DNA of 10,106 nucleotides, taken from Clostridiales bacterium. GTDB lineage: Bacteria; Bacillota; Clostridia; Saccharofermentanales; Saccharofermentanaceae. The notes below the pieces were generated by a model. The model was not told where the DNA came from. It saw only the letters and a list, made by a program, of their open reading frames with translations, and made no database searches. Position 1 is the first letter of the stretch, and each line of letters begins with the position of its first letter. Location of the stretch: positions 1-10,106 of the forward strand of contig JAGAFH010000004.1 in the NCBI GenBank assembly GCA_017612755.1, written 5' to 3'. Shown here one piece after another: positions 1-10,035 of the stretch. The position numbers and the translations under genes are program-made.

Positions 1-1161
1 GCTATCTCTGACGATAACCTGGAAGCCATAGAGGCCAGAGATGAATATCTTCAGTACAACGGAAAGATCTTCCTTGATATAGACAGCAGCGCAGAAAGCC
101 TTCAGAGTGTCTTCTTTATGGATGAAAATAACAGGGTATGCTACTTCGACCATATGCCCGGCGCATTTGGGGTAGATCCTTCTGATACAGTCTTCTCTGT
201 ATATATGTGGAATTCCTGCTGGGATCCTTCAAATCCTTATGAGACCCCTGAAGGGGAGGCATGGGAAAGCTGGTCAGCGCCCTCTGCTCCTGAACCTGAT
301 TTCCAGTTCGACCCCTATAGCATCGAGCGTGTCGTTTTCTATTATCAGTTTGAATCTCCTCTGGACTACCATAGAGAAAAAGGATTTTTCGTCACTAACC
401 ACTATAATGTCTATTATTACGAAAACGAGATCTGGGACAACACTGCCGACCGGCCCATAGACAGGTTTGATCTGATATATGAAAACATGGAGCCCTTTAC
501 CACCATAGATCCTGATTACTTCAACAGTCTTTATGCTGAAGCCGCCTGCCTGGATCCCTCCGGGACTTATCCCATAAGTCTGGTACTGGATAACGGAAAT
601 GAAGGCTACGCATACTATATAGATGAGGACGGCAACATGATCCAGTATGCCACCTACGGATCTTATACCGGAAGTATGGATTCGGCTTCCTATGCTATGG
701 TCAACATGTGGGATACCCTCTATGATCTGGGAATGGATTCTATTGATTATGATGGATATTTCAGCTGTTACACCGGCCTGGATATTCCTTTCTACAGCTT
801 TGGAGTAGATGTGGATGCCCCCTGCGGCTGCTATACCTTCTCTTCCACATCCGACCTTCTTACCTACCTGGAATCTGTAGGGATAGAATTAACTGATGAT
901 GTTATAGAGGCCATTGAGGCTGAAGATCAGACACTGGGATACGGAATGACCATTTTCCTTGAGATTGCAGACCTGGAAACAGCTTTTCCCAGAAATGCCA
1001 TCTTCATCAACAACGTAACAGGAGAGACATTCTTCGGCGGCTACAGTACAGATGAAAGCAACGGAGGCTGCATAAGGAGCGTATCCATCGCCATTGCGCC
1101 TGATGCCTTCGAGACCGGCACATATCTGACTCCTGACGGGTCCGAATGGATCAGTCAGTAA
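1..1161 (+). CDS. Acidic, aromatic-rich protein of unknown function with a duplicated domain (5' end missing)
   Basis: The frame is open from base 1, so the gene starts before the window; 386 residues and the TAA stop are visible. I do not recognise the family. The protein is rich in Asp, Glu, Tyr, Phe and Trp with few Lys. That composition suits an exported or surface protein, but any signal peptide would lie outside the window. Visible residues about 2-97 and 297-386 look like two copies of one domain. The first copy has SDDNLEAIEARDE, a KIFLDI strand and YETPEGEAWESW; the second has TDDVIEAIEAEDQ, TIFLEI and YLTPDGSEWIS. About 200 residues of Tyr-rich sequence separate them, including a DAPCGCY cysteine cluster just before copy two. 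An internal ATG at 118 falls inside the first domain copy and is not a plausible start. The last 11 bases overlap the 3' end of the convergent LysR gene and no terminator is evident. Coding is confident; function is unknown. Confidence 0.85.
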   Translation, partial: AISDDNLEAIEARDEYLQYNGKIFLDIDSSAESLQSVFFMDENNRVCYFDHMPGAFGVDPSDTVFSVYMWNSCWDPSNPYETPEGEAWESWSAPSAPEPDFQFDPYSIERVVFYYQFESPLDYHREKGFFVTNHYNVYYYENEIWDNTADRPIDRFDLIYENMEPFTTIDPDYFNSLYAEAACLDPSGTYPISLVLDNGNEGYAYYIDEDGNMIQYATYGSYTGSMDSASYAMVNMWDTLYDLGMDSIDYDGYFSCYTGLDIPFYSFGVDVDAPCGCYTFSSTSDLLTYLESVGIELTDDVIEAIEAEDQTLGYGMTIFLEIADLETAFPRNAIFINNVTGETFFGGYSTDESNGGCIRSVSIAIAPDAFETGTYLTPDGSEWISQ

Positions 1162-2050
1162 AGCGCCTGAGCATTTCGATATATTCTTCCGTCAGGGCCG
1201 AAGGATGGATCTGTGACGGAAGGATATATCCGATCTGCATATAGTCGTCCACCTTCAGGGGCTTGGCGATGATGTTGGGGCCATTCAGCTCCTCGCTGAT
1301 GACGCCGCTGCAGATGGTATAGCCGTTAAGTCCTATAAGAAGATTAAAAAGAGTAGCCCTGTCCCTTACGATAAGCTCCTTATCGCAATCGACAGTACTG
1401 AGTATCTCCTCCGAAAAATAAAAAGAGTTATGGCTTCCCTGCTCATATGAGAGTCTGGGATAGGGCTTTAAGTCCTCTAAGGTCAGGCTCTTTTTATTTG
1501 CCAGTGGGGAACCCTTCCCGATAAAGACATGGGGCTTCGCCTTAAAAAGCGGATGGAAGGTCAGGTTATTGTCCCTTAAGGTCTTCCTGATGACCGTCTC
1601 ATTGAATTCATTTAAATATAGGATGCCGATCTCGCTTCGAAGATGGGCCACGTCGTCTATGATGTCATAGGTCTCCGTTTCACGCATATGAAATTCGTAC
1701 TTTTCCGACCCGGTCTTTTTCAGAAGTTCTACAAAAGCCTCCACCGCAAAGGAGTAGTGCTGGGAGGAAACGCAGAACCTCAGCTTACCCCTTGTCTTTC
1801 CGGTATATCTCTCATCTATAAGATCAGTCTGCTCCAGCACCTGCCTTGCATATCCCAGGAATTCCTCACCTTCCGTGGTGACTTCGATTCCCTTGTTGCT
1901 CCTGGAAAAGATGGGTATATCAAATTCCTTCTCCAGTTCGTTGATGGCGGAGGTCAGACTGGGCCGGGCGATAAAGAGCCGCCTTGCCGCCTCAGTCATA
2001 TTGCCGGTATCCGCTACTGTTACTACATATCTAAGCTGTTTTAATGTCAT
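1151..2050 (-). CDS. LysR-family transcriptional regulator, probable regulator of metE-metF
   Basis: The product is 299 residues, typical for LysR regulators. Residues 1-60 form the winged helix-turn-helix (MTLKQLRYVVTVADTGN, then MTEAARRLFIARPSLTSAI and a NELEKEFDIPIFSR segment ending in TTEGE). Residues 90-299 match the periplasmic-binding-protein-like effector domain. I chose the ATG at 2050 because AGAGGGA lies about six bases upstream and because MTLKQLR is the normal family N terminus. The in-frame ATG at 2101 has no ribosome binding site and lies inside a palindromic operator candidate. The gene is divergent from metE, as metR is in Escherichia coli, and two LysR-type palindromes lie between them. 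I infer a methionine or one-carbon regulator that probably also controls itself, since one palindrome overlaps its own TATAAA-like -10 region. Whether it is an orthologue of MetR, MtaR or another LysR regulator cannot be decided from sequence alone. The ligand is unknown; homocysteine is a reasonable guess from MetR. Confidence 0.9.
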   Translation of the reverse strand: MTLKQLRYVVTVADTGNMTEAARRLFIARPSLTSAINELEKEFDIPIFSRSNKGIEVTTEGEEFLGYARQVLEQTDLIDERYTGKTRGKLRFCVSSQHYSFAVEAFVELLKKTGSEKYEFHMRETETYDIIDDVAHLRSEIGILYLNEFNETVIRKTLRDNNLTFHPLFKAKPHVFIGKGSPLANKKSLTLEDLKPYPRLSYEQGSHNSFYFSEEILSTVDCDKELIVRDRATLFNLLIGLNGYTICSGVISEELNGPNIIAKPLKVDDYMQIGYILPSQIHPSALTEEYIEMLRRFTD

Positions 2051-2069
2051 ATATATTCCCTCTAATTTT

Positions 2070-2083
2070 ATAGATTTTTCTAT
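2070..2083. promoter_or_regulatory. LysR-type binding site candidate, upstream box
   Basis: The sequence reads ATAGA, four bases, TCTAT, a perfect 5-bp inverted repeat. It lies about 20 bases before the LysR start and overlaps that gene's likely -10 region (TATAAA on the minus strand). It is centred near -70 from the predicted metE transcription start. That is where LysR proteins usually have their recruitment site, and binding here would also suit autorepression. Confidence 0.5.
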
Positions 2084-2098
2084 GATATTACCACTTAT

Positions 2099-2115
2099 CA
2101 TAGATTTTATCTATG
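2099..2115. promoter_or_regulatory. LysR-type binding site candidate, downstream box (perfect 17-bp palindrome)
   Basis: CATAGAT, TTT, ATCTATG is a perfect inverted repeat with 7-bp arms, and it contains the LysR T-N11-A signature (TAGAT-TTT-ATCTA). It is centred about 30 bp, or three helical turns, from the upstream box and near -40 from the predicted metE start, which is the usual activation site. The ATAG...CTAT half sites resemble, from memory, the palindromes described for streptococcal methionine LysR regulators. They differ from the enterobacterial MetR box TGAA-N5-TTCA. Confidence 0.6.
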
Positions 2116-2197: not shown

Positions 2198-4453
2198 ATG
2201 AAAACATCAGTAGCAGGATTTCCCAGGATCGGAAGGAACAGGGAATTAAAGTTTGCCTCCGAGAAGTATTTCAGGGGTGAGATAACCGAAAAGGAACTTC
2301 AGGAAACCGCTAAGGCACAAAGAGAGTTCGGCTTTAAGGCCCAGAAGGATGCAGGCATCAGCCTTATCCCCGTAAATGACTTCTCTTTCTACGACAATGT
2401 ACTTGATACTGCATTCCTTTTTAATGTGGTTCCTGCAAGATATAAGGAGCTGGGTCTTTCCCCTCTGGATACATATTTTGCAGCAGCAAGAGGATATCAG
2501 GGCGAAAAGGGCAACGTTAAGGCCCTGGCCATGAAGAAGTGGTTCAATACAAACTACCACTACATCGTTCCCGAGTTTGAAGATGAAACGGTCATCTCCC
2601 TTTCAGGAACAAAGCCCGTCGATGAACTCTCTGAAGCAAAAGCTCTCGGCATAGATGCCAAGGTCCAGATCACAGGCCCCTTCACCTTCTTAAAGCTCTT
2701 AAGGTTCACCGGATCCAAAAGAGCAGCTGATATCCGGGAAGCTCTTTCAAATGAATATATAAAACTCATATCAGAGATCTCTGCAGCCGGAGGCACTTTC
2801 CTCCAGCTGGATGAGCCCTGGCTGGTCAAAGATCTTTCAAATGAAGATATAGAACTCTTCAAGAGCATCTACCATAAGATCCTTTCTGACAAAAAAGGCC
2901 TTAAGATCCTCCTTCAGACCTACTTTGGAGACATCAGGGACGCATTTAACACTGTTACATCCTTGAATCTTGATGCCATCGGCCTGGACTTTGTGGAAGG
3001 CAGAAAGACCCTGGAGCTTATAAAGACCAATGGTTTCCCTGAAGATAAGATCTTAGTTGCAGGTATCGTAAACGGAAAGAATATCTGGAAGAATGACTAC
3101 TCAAAGTCAAAGGCTGTTCTTGACGAACTTAAGACTATCGTCCCTGAAGAAAATCTTTATATCGGCACATCCTGTTCTCTTCTTCACGTTCCGTACACAC
3201 TGAAGAGCGAGACAAAGCTCAAGGAAGAATACAAGGCCCACTTTGCTTTTGCAGAGGAGAAACTCAAAGAGCTCAAGGATCTGTCCTCCCTTAGTGATGA
3301 GATCGTATCTGCCAACAAAGAGCTTTTCGCAGGACGCCCGGATGTCTTTGATGCAGAAGTACAGGGCCGTGTTTCTTCCATTAAAGAGGAGGACTATACC
3401 CGCCTTCCCGTTTTCGAGGAGAGGATGGCCATCCAGAATGATATCTTAAAGCTTCCTCCCTTCCCTACCACCACTATCGGTTCCTTCCCCCAGACAGATG
3501 ATGTCAGAAAAAACCGCCGCGCTTTTAAGAACGGAGAGATCTCCGAAGCGCAGTATGTGGAGTTCAATAAGGGCAAGATCAAGGAGTGCATAGAGCTTCA
3601 GGAGAAGCTGGGCCTTGATGTGCTTGTCCACGGCGAGTATGAGAGAAACGACATGGTAGAGTACTTCGGCGAGCACCTTTCAGGCTACCTCTTCACGGAG
3701 AAGGCCTGGGTCCTTTCCTATGGTACAAGATGTGTTAAGCCCCCGATCATCTGGGGAGACGTCTCAAGAAAGACACCTATAACGGTAGAGTGGTCAAAGT
3801 ATGCCCAGAGCCTTACGGACAAGCCTGTCAAGGGAATGCTCACAGGTCCCGTTACTATCCTTAACTGGTCCTTCCCCAGAGAAGATATCTCCATCAAAGA
3901 GAGCATCCTTCAGATCGCCCTGGCTATCAGGGATGAGGTCCTGGATCTTGAAGCTAACGGTATCGGCATCATCCAGATCGACGAGGCAGCCCTCAGAGAG
4001 AAGCTTCCCCTCAGAAAGTCCGACTGGTACAGCGAATATCTGGACTTTGCAATCCCCGCCTTCAGGCTGGTCCACAGCGGAGTCAAGCCCCGGACCCAGA
4101 TCCATACCCATATGTGCTACAGCGAGTTCACGGATATCATCCCCGCCATCGATTCAATGGATGCGGATGTTATCACCTTCGAGGCCTCCCGTTCAGACCT
4201 GACCATCCTCGACTCCCTTAAGGAGAACAACTTCAAGACCCAGGTAGGTCCCGGCGTCTACGATATCCACAGCCCCCGTGTGCCTTCCACAGAGGAACTG
4301 GTAGGCCAGCTCACAAAGATCAGGACGAAGACTGAGGACAAAAAGCTCTGGGTAAATCCCGACTGCGGCCTTAAGACAAGAGGCACGGAAGAGACAGTGA
4401 AGAGCCTTGCCAACCTGGTAGAGGCAGCAAAGATCATAAGGCAGCAGGGATAA
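2198..4453 (+). CDS. metE: Cobalamin-independent methionine synthase (5-methyltetrahydropteroyltriglutamate-homocysteine methyltransferase)
   Basis: MetE transfers the methyl group of 5-methyl-tetrahydrofolate polyglutamate to homocysteine, the last step of methionine synthesis, in the cytoplasm and without vitamin B12. The product is 751 residues, close to the 753 of the E. coli enzyme. The N-terminal barrel begins with [15 protein letters not shown] (residues 4-18) and the C-terminal catalytic barrel with [10 protein letters not shown] (424-433). The zinc and homocysteine site appears intact: His638 and Cys640 in HTHMCYSEF, Glu662 in FEASRSD and Cys723 in NPDCGLKTR. The LQLDEPW (residues 202-208) and [11 protein letters not shown] (591-601) segments match the family. 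I chose ATG 2198 because AAGGAG lies seven bases upstream and the protein then begins at the normal N terminus; an ATG at 2132 would add 22 unrelated residues and sits in the promoter. The stop shares a base with the metF start. The LysR protein probably activates it. Confidence 0.97.
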
Positions 4454-5313
4454 TGAAGATAGCGGATATCTACAAAGGTAATAAGAAGACTCTGTCTTTT
4501 GAGATCTTCCCCCCGAAAAAGGATTCGGAACTTAAGTCCATCGACGAGACCCTGGAGGTACTGTGTGAGCTTAAGCCTGACTTCATAAGCGTCACCTTCG
4601 GCGCCGGGGGAGGATTAAACTCCAGCAGGACAGTTGAGATCGCAAAGACCATCAAGCACAGGTATAACGTGGAGCCGGTGGTCCATCTCACCTCCCTTCA
4701 CTACGACAGAAAAGAGATCGATTCCTTTGCGGAGGTCCTGGAGGCGGAAGGCATCGAAAACATCCTGGCCTTAAGAGGGGACAGATCTCCCCTCCTGGCC
4801 GAAAAGGATGATTTCCATCATGCCTCCGACCTTATATCCTACTTAAAGAAAGACCACGACTTCTGTTTCCTCGGGGCCTGCTACCCGGAATGCCACCCGG
4901 AGTCCCCGGACAGGATCAGCGACATGAAGGGACTTAAGGATAAGGTGGATGCGGGAGCTTCCGTTCTTGTTTCCCAGCTGTTTTTCGAGAACAGAAGGTT
5001 CTACGATATGTGCGAGAAGTCAAGGATCGCCGGCATCGATGTCCCCATCATCCCCGGGATCATGCCGGTCATAAATGCGGTGCAGATCAGGAAGATGATC
5101 TCCCTTTGTAATGCCACATTCCCGGACAGGTTCAAAAAGATAATCAGCAGATATGAAAATAAAAAGGAAGCCCTCTTTGATGCGGGCATGTCCTATGCCT
5201 TAAGCCAGATCGTAGATCTTCTGGCCGGCGACATCCCGGGGATCCATCTTTATACGATGAATAATCCTGCTGTTGCAAGACGCATATGTGAAGGTGTCAG
5301 AAATCTTGTCTGA
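4453..5313 (+). CDS. metF: Methylenetetrahydrofolate reductase (MetF)
   Basis: MetF reduces 5,10-methylene-tetrahydrofolate to 5-methyl-tetrahydrofolate using FAD, supplying the methyl donor for MetE encoded just upstream. The 286-residue product matches the single-domain bacterial enzyme. SFEIFPP (residues 15-21) carries the catalytic Glu17. LKPDFISVTFGAGG (40-53), ALRGD (106-110, Asp110 near the flavin), YPECHPES (144-151), KVDAGA (164-169), SQLFF (174-178, Gln175) and IIPGIMPV (199-206) all follow the family order. The ATG overlaps the metE stop by one base (TAATG) and there is an AGGGA just inside the end of metE, so translation is almost certainly coupled to metE. The TGA stop lies only six bases from the stop of the convergent lipase-like gene, and I see no strong terminator between them. 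In some clostridia an extra C-terminal domain or partner is used for electron supply; none is visible here. Confidence 0.95.
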   Translation: MKIADIYKGNKKTLSFEIFPPKKDSELKSIDETLEVLCELKPDFISVTFGAGGGLNSSRTVEIAKTIKHRYNVEPVVHLTSLHYDRKEIDSFAEVLEAEGIENILALRGDRSPLLAEKDDFHHASDLISYLKKDHDFCFLGACYPECHPESPDRISDMKGLKDKVDAGASVLVSQLFFENRRFYDMCEKSRIAGIDVPIIPGIMPVINAVQIRKMISLCNATFPDRFKKIISRYENKKEALFDAGMSYALSQIVDLLAGDIPGIHLYTMNNPAVARRICEGVRNLV

Positions 5314-6318: not shown

Positions 6319-7527
6319 ATGTCTGGTATATTAGATGTTTTTAAGGGGAAACCTGACGGAAGAGTCGGTACTCCCGCAGTCGGTTATTCTGTTTCCGGCG
6401 ACAGCGGAGCAAACAGCAAGAACACATCGTCCAAGGGCGATAATATCTCAACTATCGATAATCCTGCAGCCAACTACGCAAGAGAGCGCGCCGCAGCGGC
6501 TAAGGCCCAGATCGAGGCACGTAAGGCAATGGAAGAAGCCCGCAAGGCTGCAGCAGCCAAGAAAGAAGAACCTTCTAAAGATGTTAAGACGACGGATAAG
6601 CCCGCAGCGCCCACAAGGCCTGCAGCAGAGGCAAAGCCTCCCGTAGGGCTTAAGCCGCCCATCAAGAGACCCCCTTCTGCATCCATCAATCATGCAGCGG
6701 CAGTCGCAGCAGGCGCAGTAGCAGGTTCAACGCCCGGCCGTCCCGGTTCTATGCCCTCTTCTACCAAATCCGCTGCAACACTTGCCGCAGAGAAGGCTAA
6801 GCTGGAATACAACCAGGCTAAGATCCGCGAGGACCGCGCTGTAAAGCAGGCTGAAGAAGCCCAGGCTAAAGCTGATGAAGCAAGACAGGCTGTCGAGAAG
6901 GCAACACAGGTCCGTGAGGAAGCCTTAAAGTCCGAGGAAGAAGCCAAGAAGCTGGCTGAAACTGCAGACGAGGAATACTTCACAGCCCTTGCAGCTGCCG
7001 AAGATGCACAGGCTGAGGCGAACAAGCTGGAAGAAGCAGCCAAGATCGCTGCCGAGAAGGCTGCCGAGGCAATGAAGATCGTCCATCAGAAGAAGACTGA
7101 ACAGGAAGCAAGGCAGACAGCCATAAGAGCAGAAGAGAGAGCAAGAAAGGCTGCCGAGGAGTTCGAGGAAGAAGCCAAGAATGCGGCTACCCATGCTGAG
7201 GAGCTTGCTAAGAGCACTGCCGAAAAGGCTGAAGAAGCCAAGAAGGAAACTAAGACAGCTGAGGAAGCTTATTCCCTTGCAAATAAGAAGAAGGTCGAAG
7301 AGGACGGCAGGATCGCTGCCCAGAAGGCCGAAGAAGAAGCTCAGGCTGCAGCCGCCAAGGCCAGAGAGAAGGCTGAAGCTGCTGCCAAGAGAGCTGAGGA
7401 AGCCATGGCTGCCGCCAAGAAGGCTGAAGAAGAGGCAAGAGCAGCTGCCGCCGCTGCCGAGGAGGAAGCCCGCAGGGCTGCTGAGCTGGCCGAAGAGAAG
7501 GCTAAGCTGGCTTCTATGACTGAATAA
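6319..7527 (+). CDS. Ala/Glu/Lys-rich hendecad coiled-coil protein of unknown function
   Basis: The product is 402 residues with no Cys, no Trp and very few aromatics. Residues 1-50 are a Gly/Ser/Asn-rich head starting MSGILDVFKGKPDGR. Residues 51-83 are a short Ala-rich helix. Residues 84-150 are a Pro/Lys/Ala linker with an Ala-rich patch (125-135). Residues 153-400 are one long predicted helix. From residue 271 on, AEE-type triplets recur at 271, 282, 293, 304, 314, 326, 337, 348, 359, 369, 380 and 391, nearly always 11 residues apart, the hendecad signature of an almost straight or right-handed coiled coil. There is no signal peptide or membrane segment, so it is probably a cytoplasmic rod or filament protein. 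It looks superficially like the TolA middle domain but lacks the TolA ends. Start: ATG with a strong ribosome binding site and a consensus promoter. It is a single-gene transcript closed by a terminator. I infer a structural or scaffold role; I do not recognise a named family. Confidence 0.9.
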   Translation: MSGILDVFKGKPDGRVGTPAVGYSVSGDSGANSKNTSSKGDNISTIDNPAANYARERAAAAKAQIEARKAMEEARKAAAAKKEEPSKDVKTTDKPAAPTRPAAEAKPPVGLKPPIKRPPSASINHAAAVAAGAVAGSTPGRPGSMPSSTKSAATLAAEKAKLEYNQAKIREDRAVKQAEEAQAKADEARQAVEKATQVREEALKSEEEAKKLAETADEEYFTALAAAEDAQAEANKLEEAAKIAAEKAAEAMKIVHQKKTEQEARQTAIRAEERARKAAEEFEEEAKNAATHAEELAKSTAEKAEEAKKETKTAEEAYSLANKKKVEEDGRIAAQKAEEEAQAAAAKAREKAEAAAKRAEEAMAAAKKAEEEARAAAAAAEEEARRAAELAEEKAKLASMTE

Positions 7528-9151: not shown

Positions 9152-9379
9152 ATGAGCATCTTAATAAAAGACACAACTAAAGAAGAACGGGAACGGATCG
9201 TAGCTGAATCCATAGGGAACATAAACGGATCCTGCGACGGCTGTATGGCAGGCCTTGCCGAGATGTACCAGGACTATATCGACGGCAGGAAGGAGATCCG
9301 GGACATCAACATGGAGTTCAGGGCAAGCTACGAATCCGGTATCGACGGTCCCGAAAGATCAGACTGCGGCTATAAGTGA
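9152..9379 (+). CDS. Small 75-residue CxxC protein of unknown function
   Basis: The product starts MSILIKDTTKEERERIVAES, continues through GSCDGCMAG (CxxC at residues 28-31) and a MYQDYIDGRKEIRDINMEFR segment, and ends in CGYK. The mixed amphipathic composition, codon use like its neighbours and its own promoter support a real gene. It is soluble, without signal peptide or membrane segment. The two cysteines four residues apart plus Cys73 could bind metal or form a disulfide, which is inference. I have an unconfirmed recollection that similar short clostridial proteins carry purine-related product labels; the adjacent purine permease is the only local support, so I assign no function. There is no Shine-Dalgarno sequence before the ATG, and the promoter spacing predicts a leaderless mRNA. 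The next gene begins 68 bases downstream on the same strand with no terminator between, so cotranscription is possible. Confidence 0.75.
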   Translation: MSILIKDTTKEERERIVAESIGNINGSCDGCMAGLAEMYQDYIDGRKEIRDINMEFRASYESGIDGPERSDCGYK

Positions 9380-9417
9380 TCCCACGATGCGTAGGTACCA
9401 CAGCATAAGATCAGATG

Positions 9418-9443
9418 TTATCCTTACCCCATAAGGAGGATAA
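9418..9443 (+). promoter_or_regulatory. Hairpin sequestering the ribosome binding site of the XRE-desulfoferrodoxin gene
   Basis: TCCTTA (9421-9426) can pair with TAAGGA (9432-9437) across a five-base loop. Alternatively TTATCC (9418-9423) pairs with GGATAA (9438-9443), with TTA/TAA stacked inside. Either fold buries the AAGGAGG at 9433-9439 that serves the ATG at 9448. Translation might therefore be controlled by RNA folding. A weak extended -10 (TGTTATCCT, 9416-9424) overlaps the 5' arm; if that were the real promoter, the arm would not be transcribed. Confidence 0.45.
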
Positions 9444-9447
9444 ACCT

Positions 9448-10035
9448 ATGGACAGATATGTGACAGGCGCAGCCATAAAGCGCCTCAGGGAAAAGAAGAA
9501 CCTTACCCAGGAAGAGCTGGCCCGGAAGATCCACGTCAGCAGCAAGGCAGTGAGCAAATGGGAGACCGGCGCAGGTTTTCCCGACATAAGCCTCATCGAG
9601 CCCTTATCGGAAGCACTGGACATCTCAGTGATCGAGCTTCTCTCGGGAGAAGACATAACTAACAGGAACAGATCATCCAACATGCTAAAGGGCAACTTCT
9701 ACGTCTGCCCCGTCTGCGGCAACATCATCAGGACGACAGGAGATACAGTGATCTCCTGCTGCGGCATCACACTTCCCAAGGAAGAGGAAGAAGATGAAGA
9801 CGAAGACCACAAGATAACGGTAGAGAAAGTGGAAGACGAATACTACATCTCAGTTGACCATCCCATGTCCAAGGACCACTACATCTCTTTCCTGGCGGCC
9901 GTCTCGGACCACCGGGTCCAGATCGTAAAGCTCTATCCGGAAGGAGACGCTGCAGCCAGATTCAAGATCGACCGGGTCAAGAAGATCTACGCCTTCTGCA
10001 ACCACCACGGCCTATTCAGAAAGCTGAACCGATAA
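9448..10035 (+). CDS. XRE-family DNA-binding domain fused to a desulfoferrodoxin/superoxide-reductase-like domain
   Basis: The product is 195 residues. Residues 7-62 are an XRE (Cro/C1-type) helix-turn-helix: IKRLREKKNLTQEELARKI then SSKAVSKWETG. Residues 84-195 look like desulfoferrodoxin. FYVCPVCGNII (84-94) and VISCCGI (101-107) give the CxxC and CC cysteines of the desulforedoxin-type iron site (Cys87, 90, 104, 105). His121, His138 and His144 (DHPMSKDHYISF), with Cys184 and His187 (FCNHHGLF), match the His4Cys ligands of superoxide reductase. Glu119 matches the family Glu two before the first His, but the following Lys is Asp120 here. A ten-residue all-acidic run (EEEEDEDED after Lys111) replaces the usual spacer. 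I infer an iron-based redox or superoxide/oxygen sensor rather than an enzyme. ATG 9448 has AAGGAGG eight bases upstream; an ATG at 9415 lacks one. Tandem TAA TAA stops end it. No separate reductase or rubredoxin gene is in the window. Confidence 0.88.
   Translation: MDRYVTGAAIKRLREKKNLTQEELARKIHVSSKAVSKWETGAGFPDISLIEPLSEALDISVIELLSGEDITNRNRSSNMLKGNFYVCPVCGNIIRTTGDTVISCCGITLPKEEEEDEDEDHKITVEKVEDEYYISVDHPMSKDHYISFLAAVSDHRVQIVKLYPEGDAAARFKIDRVKKIYAFCNHHGLFRKLNR

Follow-up and report, generated by a model that had tools for sequence, protein, structure and literature searches.

An XRE helix-turn-helix joined to a desulfoferrodoxin module in a Clostridiales bacterium: a candidate self-regulating redox- or metal-responsive regulator

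The fusion protein and its relatives

The DNA analysed here, hereafter the window, is a stretch of 10,106 nucleotides from a Clostridiales bacterium (family Saccharofermentanaceae, assembly GCA_017612755.1, contig JAGAFH010000004.1). Near its 3' end lies a gene whose product joins an XRE helix-turn-helix (HTH) to a desulfoferrodoxin (Dfx) module, which consists of a desulforedoxin (Dx) site with four cysteines and a superoxide reductase (SOR) fold (Table 1). This architecture is well supported. The HTH part matched the HTH_3 family with 50.8 bits, above the curated Pfam cut-off of 23, and PADLOC matches of the fusion protein were confined to this part. Alignment to the desulfoferrodoxin structure 2ji2 placed the four cysteines of the CXXC...CC pattern, and alignment to 2ji2 and 1dfx placed the four histidines and one cysteine of the SOR centre (centre II), an assignment based on alignment rather than on distances. 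An earlier reading made from the letters alone (the sequence-only reading) had noticed the XRE domain, the four cysteines and the five SOR ligands (His121, His138, His144, Cys184 and His187), and all of these were borne out by translation, family searches and alignments to Protein Data Bank (PDB) sequences. Its remark that Asp120 replaces the catalytic lysine of the E-K-H motif was likewise correct, since the PDB sequence alignment shows E-D-H at this place. The domain search that it had proposed gave matches to Pfam Desulfoferrodox and HTH_3, but the score for the NCBIfam equivalog TIGR00320 was 52.3 bits, below the cut-off of 146.9. In the structure prediction that it had also proposed, the model matched the SOR fold, with the SOR entry 6gq8 of N. 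equitans among the fold matches.

Table 1. Features of the fusion gene and other genes in the window
Feature	Position	Strand	Basis or remark
HTH-Dx-SOR fusion gene	9448..10035	+	195 amino acids plus stop; translation, families, PDB sequences, model
XRE helix-turn-helix (HTH_3), residues 10-64	9475..9639	+	
Desulforedoxin-like site, residues 83-109 (Cys87, Cys90, Cys104, Cys105)	9694..9774	+	TIGR00320, 2ji2 alignment
SOR-like beta domain, residues 113-193	9784..10026	+	Pfam Desulfoferrodox, PDB alignments, fold match
SOR ligand codons H121; H138; H144; C184; H187	9808-9810; 9859-9861; 9877-9879; 9997-9999; 10006-10008	+	
Predicted operator CCACGATGCGTAGGT, exact copy of CYACGNNNCGTRGGT	9382..9396	+	66 bp 5' of the start codon, over the place of the -35 element
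Probable -10 box TGTTAT	9416..9421	+	downstream of operator; read by eye, counterpart in relatives
Ribosome-binding site AAGGAGG	9433..9439	+	sequence
Nine-pair hairpin directly 3' of the stop codon	10039..10065	+	no U run
Divergent LysR regulator, beside metE/MTHFR	1151-2101	-	open reading frame (ORF) list
metE (Meth_synt_1/2) and MTHFR genes in a row	2201-5313		
402-aa Ala/Glu/Lys-rich coiled-coil-like protein	6319-7527		no Pfam match
75-aa ORF with CDGC motif, just 5' of operator	9152-9379		no family match; candidate gene only

The domain order HTH, Dx, SOR was already known. It defines the HTH-Dx-SOR class named in 2011 in SORGOdb (BMC Microbiol), which then held 19 proteins and for which the accessible part of the SORGOdb account states no function (PMC3116461). 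With its HTH in front of a Dx-SOR module, the window protein is another member of this class, and an uncharacterised one as far as searched: no characterised member or functional study was found in the open-access literature, subscription papers being outside the search. The class is set beside the window protein by domain order; the operator, the targets, the loss of the lysine and the erosion of ligands described below come from the present analysis, and the operator, the targets and the residue differences that set regulator and enzyme apart appear unreported in the literature searched. The best literature lead, TrtA of Treponema denticola, was rejected; it is a 104-aa XRE protein with an end that, by its authors' account, is unlike any known functional protein.

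Similar fusions had been expected in other clostridia, and they were found there and also in Bacillales. Full-length relatives occur in 60 of the 85 genomes of the genus (two of them split into two pieces) and, when G001, G002, G005, G007 and G092 are added, in 65 of 115 genomes of the family. With a threshold of E <= 1e-30, 75 of the 391 genomes sampled from the class and 30 of the 398 from the phylum have a relative; a few of the matches are partial. Most named records are Clostridia of rumen and gut; Oscillibacter, Bacillus marasmi and two bins labelled Treponema (labels as binned) also occur, and a protein database query with the B. marasmi protein retrieved Sporosarcina, Planococcus, Metabacillus, Neobacillus, Lysinibacillus and others. 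These Bacillales genera are largely aerobes. Where a source gives a member a name, this is mostly helix-turn-helix or XRE protein, desulfoferrodoxin being added in a few JGI names. A relative covering 98% of the fusion protein at 52.6% identity is also found in a Bacteriophage sp. record from human faeces (MT835563.1, 21715-22296), where it may be either prophage cargo or host DNA.

The predicted operator and the genes that carry it

The pattern CTCYACG-N3-CGTRGGT recurs some 66 bp upstream of the start codon in many of the 147 distinct fusions collected, with a -10-like box after it that was read by eye. In the window, TGTTAT is probably this box; it is weak by consensus and was not called by a sigma-70 scan. 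The operator seed was matched at 11 of 11 positions in 62/147 members and at 9 or more of 11 in 97/147, versus 36 of 735 shuffled sequences. The exact CYACGNNNCGTRGGT occurs once in the window genome (an assembly that is 70% complete) and 42 times in the 85 genus genomes, where 36 of the 42 copies stand 64-116 bp before a fusion gene; the pattern read backwards gave 31 in all. Six exact copies lie away from the fusion. Of the five inspected, four are inside ORFs and the one in G033 lies before an XRE paralogue; the sixth is on contig C101 of G080. A matrix was built from 76 sites of the window clade (81 members with 50% or more identity to the window protein) and applied, with a score threshold of 8, to the held-out distant members (<=46% identical). 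A site was found before 34 of these 66, the corresponding counts being 4 of 660 for shuffles and 6 of 625 for other genes. Of the six other genes, three head GIY-YIG-like gene clusters in which a fusion lies, a fourth encodes a transporter and neighbours such a cluster, and the remaining two adjoin fusions (L053 and L126). Palindromic covariation of the operator between pyrimidines and purines was weak: among 58 distinct sites, 50 fall in four such classes (Fisher p 0.04, kinship ignored).

By conservation, the fusion family has a predicted cognate operator of the kind expected for XRE (Cro/C1) regulators. P22 c2 and SinR have the HTH fold in common with the window protein and, by prediction, also a palindromic promoter operator, but the window protein differs in having a desulfoferrodoxin module as its C-terminal part. 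The operator goes together with the fusion, whether at the fusion's promoter, heading its gene cluster or before a distant gene, so it is very likely that the HTH binds it. The proposal that the protein would be a DNA-binding regulator is well supported by this conserved sequence before the gene and at cluster heads.

The operator, the self-targeting in the genus and the other targets in other lineages are well supported. For the latter, 28 fusion members on loci over 5 kb that lack a site at their own promoter were examined for cluster-head operators, and in 16 of them the operator heads the cluster that holds the fusion: 14 times before a small GIY-YIG-like gene, once (L114) before an FMN-reductase-like flavodoxin gene (Pfam Flavodoxin_2 and FMN_red) that overlaps the fusion by 4 bp, and once (L221) before another small gene. 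All ORFs called between operator and fusion are on the fusion strand in 15 of the 16 clusters, L221 having one overlapping antisense ORF called. GIY-YIG-like is a label from weak matches only: an L221 relative scored 25.4 bits against group I intron endonucleases, below the cut-off of 56, a protein of L298 matched a homing endonuclease model at E 3e-4, and Pfam gave no such match. The cluster often goes on with DUF6530 (PF20140) and then an AAA_5 protein with a VWA-like end (21.6 bits, cut-off 23.8).

Among the 391 class genomes, the exact YCTACGNNNCGTRGRTTG was found at 8 places, versus 3 for the pattern read backwards; 6 of the 8 belong to fusion clusters or promoters. The other two places are before an XRE-GNAT protein in G726, where no fusion was detected, and before the GIY-YIG-like cluster of G683. 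In this last cluster (L298, contig C7, 1566-4435), GIY-YIG-like, DUF6530 and AAA_5 genes, the last with a VWA-like end, stand under the same operator and no fusion follows. GIY-YIG-like genes at E < 1e-20 were found in 12 genomes, 11 of which have the fusion (compared to 75/391 overall; Fisher p 7e-8, kinship ignored). All 30 GIY-YIG-like loci retrieved were scored by match coordinates. Each of the 11 fusion genomes that have a close homologue shows a site 61-64 nt before the start of the match, with scores from 7.0 to 26.1; nine score 14.5 to 26.1, and the two weak ones, G837 (10.6) and G714 (7.0), exceed the 95% level of the shuffles, G837 being below the shuffle maximum. In G683, G714 and G760 the GIY-YIG-like gene, which in G760 has an internal stop, is separate from the fusion, and G775 has the two on different short contigs. 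The 17 GIY-YIG-like genes in genomes without a detected fusion (the close one of G730 and 16 distant ones) have no site, the best score being -2.1.

The gene that follows the exact operator of the same type in G726 (L292, contig C60, near 1501-1518) encodes an XRE protein with a GNAT acetyltransferase joined to it. Together with the XRE paralogue of G033 (L250), this suggests that one HTH type and operator is common to regulators with different C-terminal parts. In the neighbourhood of the 147 loci no widely shared gene was found; a flavodoxin/FMN-reductase-like gene adjoins the fusion on the same strand in 6 loci, and a MATE-like transporter gene lies next to it in 6.

As for the rest of the window, the hairpin behind the stop codon is a possible transcript end of the fusion gene (fold z-score -2.1; 4 of 200 shuffles fold equally well), and a terminator scan made no call there. 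No RNA family reached its gathering score in the window. The LysR gene next to metE presumably encodes a methionine regulator.

Metal-site residues in fusions and stand-alone proteins

Desulfoferrodoxins, or 2Fe-SORs (1dfx, 2ji1-2ji3), have both sets of metal ligands and the fold in common with the window protein, which differs by the replaced catalytic lysine and the added HTH. To see how far this holds in the family, residues were counted in the 147 distinct fusions and in the 120 best matches for each of three queries (window clade, Bacillales and Oscillibacter-like). The first three Dx cysteines are present in 147/147 fusions, and the fourth is Cys in 137 and His in 10, of which 8 also carry Asp at position 187. 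All five SOR ligands are kept in 96 fusions, and all nine metal residues in 95. Taken singly, His138 is kept in 147, His144 and Cys184 in 139 each, His187 in 122 and His121 in 113. The lysine of E-K-H was found in 0 of 81 fusions in one set and in 5 of 147 in the other. The best matches to the window clade keep all five ligands in 117 of 120 cases, with a lysine in none. In the Bacillales set, position 121 is mostly Glu and position 184 is Asp in most, Cys-His being kept in 36 and the lysine present in 2 of 120. In the Oscillibacter-like set, 111 have Glu or Asp at 121 and all but one have the other four ligands; no lysine was among the eight commonest residues at the E-K-H place (118 proteins). 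The four Dx cysteines occur in all patterns listed for the three sets, these being for Bacillales the 14 commonest patterns, with two proteins outside them. On a FastTree tree of 163 sequences, built without the ligand columns and with 65 of 160 inner branches weakly supported, the fewest changes needed are 6 for His121, 6 for Cys184 and 16 for His187. K/R142, Y163-P164-E165 and R171 are near-constant in the fusion family and are other residues in the stand-alone Dfx of the genus (read by eye).

Such a second, stand-alone Dfx is encoded on contig C76 of the window genome, and at E < 1e-9 in 52 of the 60 genus genomes that bear the fusion. Nine were examined (that of the window genome and L100-L107), chosen as the best-scoring of those listed and not as a random sample. 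All nine have E-K-H and the five SOR ligands, and all lack one or more Dx-site cysteines, so that none has a full Cys4 site.

Judged by these residues, the conserved metal site of the fusion family is the desulforedoxin one and the SOR centre is variable, though intact in the window clade, where both metal sites look intact. The sequence-only reading had put the emphasis on the SOR centre, the variable one of the two. Its suggestion that sensing has replaced turnover gains indirect support from the rarity of the lysine in fusions and its presence in the nine stand-alone proteins, which lack a full Cys4 site.

Regulator, enzyme or metal sensor

The best reading of these data is that the fusion may be a self-regulating one-component regulator that responds to redox or metal. 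In the form of a self-regulating transcription factor with the desulfoferrodoxin module as sensor, we hold this reading with moderate confidence. As the conservation of the imperfect palindrome CYACGNNNCGTRGGT suggests, a dimer of the XRE domain would bind it where it covers the -35 region of the fusion gene's promoter, and the bound dimer would most likely repress this promoter. Oxidation or loss of the mononuclear iron sites in the C-terminal module would then alter the dimer, and the DNA would be released. This would yield more fusion protein and, in some lineages, also more of its partners, either the FMN-reductase-like flavodoxin or the GIY-YIG-like/DUF6530/AAA/VWA-like cluster. Repression rather than activation, the dimer, iron occupancy and the signal are what we infer here. 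As an obligatory switch the Fe(Cys)4 site is the more likely of the two, because the desulforedoxin cysteines are near-invariant and the SOR ligands are eroding. More generally, we consider it a tentative possibility that these widespread Bacillota regulators sense redox via a rubredoxin-type Fe(Cys)4 site, with the former SOR centre as oxidant trigger in anaerobes and as a carboxylate-His site in Bacillales.

Several observations weigh against such a regulator. In eight close genomes the only exact operator is that of the fusion itself, the 20 one-mismatch places examined (of 44 listed) are all inside ORFs, and one-mismatch matches are rarer than those for the pattern read backwards. In the window genome there are two further one-mismatch places (L235 and L237), one in an ORF and the other at an ORF edge. 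Thus, no second target is visible in the window genus, which would also suit a self-regulated enzyme. The -35 place under the operator is poor in the window clade, which makes activation possible. Among the 28 members that lack an own-promoter site, 9 have no placeable site and 3 (L039, L050 and L211) have one at an odd distance, perhaps because of a miscalled start, and the distant GIY-YIG-like genes in the fusion genomes G833 and G650 have none. The exact operator before the XRE-GNAT protein of G726, where the fusion was not detected, indicates that other XRE proteins use the same site. Iron binding by the fusion is itself a prediction, and since the window protein has all five SOR ligands, as do 117 of the 120 best matches to it in the database, turnover is possible.

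In the window genus the fusion protein thus seems to control only itself, as far as operator matches tell, and this allows two readings. The protein could be a sensor that, once induced, increases its own buffering or scavenging, or it could be an enzyme that regulates itself. In the latter case, the C-terminal module would still reduce superoxide and the HTH would only set the amount of enzyme. The five intact ligands of the window clade keep this explanation alive, and an operator visible only at the gene's own promoter fits it. Some SORs without the lysine are active, a point on which a literature search gave nothing useful. We nevertheless consider a working SOR unlikely: 52 of the 60 fusion-bearing genus genomes have a separate SOR, with E-K-H kept in the nine examined, the lysine is lost in nearly all fusions, at least one SOR ligand is changed in 51/147, and residue 184 is Asp in most of the Bacillales set. 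The sensor is favoured because the lysine has been lost, a separate enzyme is present and centre II has eroded. If the protein is a sensor, its signal could be the supply of iron or another metal, with occupancy of the site instead of its redox state controlling DNA binding. A divalent metal site without SOR chemistry could persist after the exchanges of carboxylate for His and of Asp for Cys seen in Bacillales and Oscillibacter-like members, and the AAA proteins with a VWA-like end that adjoin some members recall metal-insertion chaperones. On the other hand, no iron-uptake gene is prominent among the recurrent neighbour clusters listed for the 147 loci (read by eye, unannotated), and Cys4 sites of the desulforedoxin type hold iron firmly. 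We consider metal supply unlikely as the signal. A redox signal and metal supply are indistinguishable from sequence, and superoxide, oxygen or peroxide would be the more likely signal.

Two further explanations concern the HTH itself. In the iron enzymes HppE and MPnS an HTH-like domain is not known to be used on DNA, and the domain of the fusion could be a structural appendage of this kind, but an operator that is kept across clades of <=46% identity, at cluster heads and at genes apart from the fusion makes this very improbable. Weak HTH matches to MqsA and HipB models raise the idea of an antitoxin, which we find even harder to credit, as MqsA_antitoxin scored 21.8 bits against a cut-off of 30, in the HTH part only, and no small partner recurs beside the fusion among the listed neighbour clusters of the 147 loci.

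PerR, of the Fur family, is a mononuclear-metal oxidant sensor that represses its targets, with a fold unrelated to the fusion and other ligands. The likeness would be in mode of action only, and only if our inference holds. One account describes PerR as a repressor of oxidative-stress genes (PMC3828012). If the sensor reading is true, the fusion family would differ from PerR, SoxR, NorR and FNR as a type of transcriptional iron sensor, its operator being shared and its targets specific to each lineage, and the split within the genus, between an enzyme with the lysine and centre II but without a full Cys4 site and a regulator with Cys4 but without the lysine, would show a route from enzyme to sensor. 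To our knowledge, little is known about the sensing of superoxide and oxygen in strict anaerobes by means other than PerR, and what was a domain curiosity can now be tested directly through the predicted operator, the targets and the residues in which regulator and enzyme differ.
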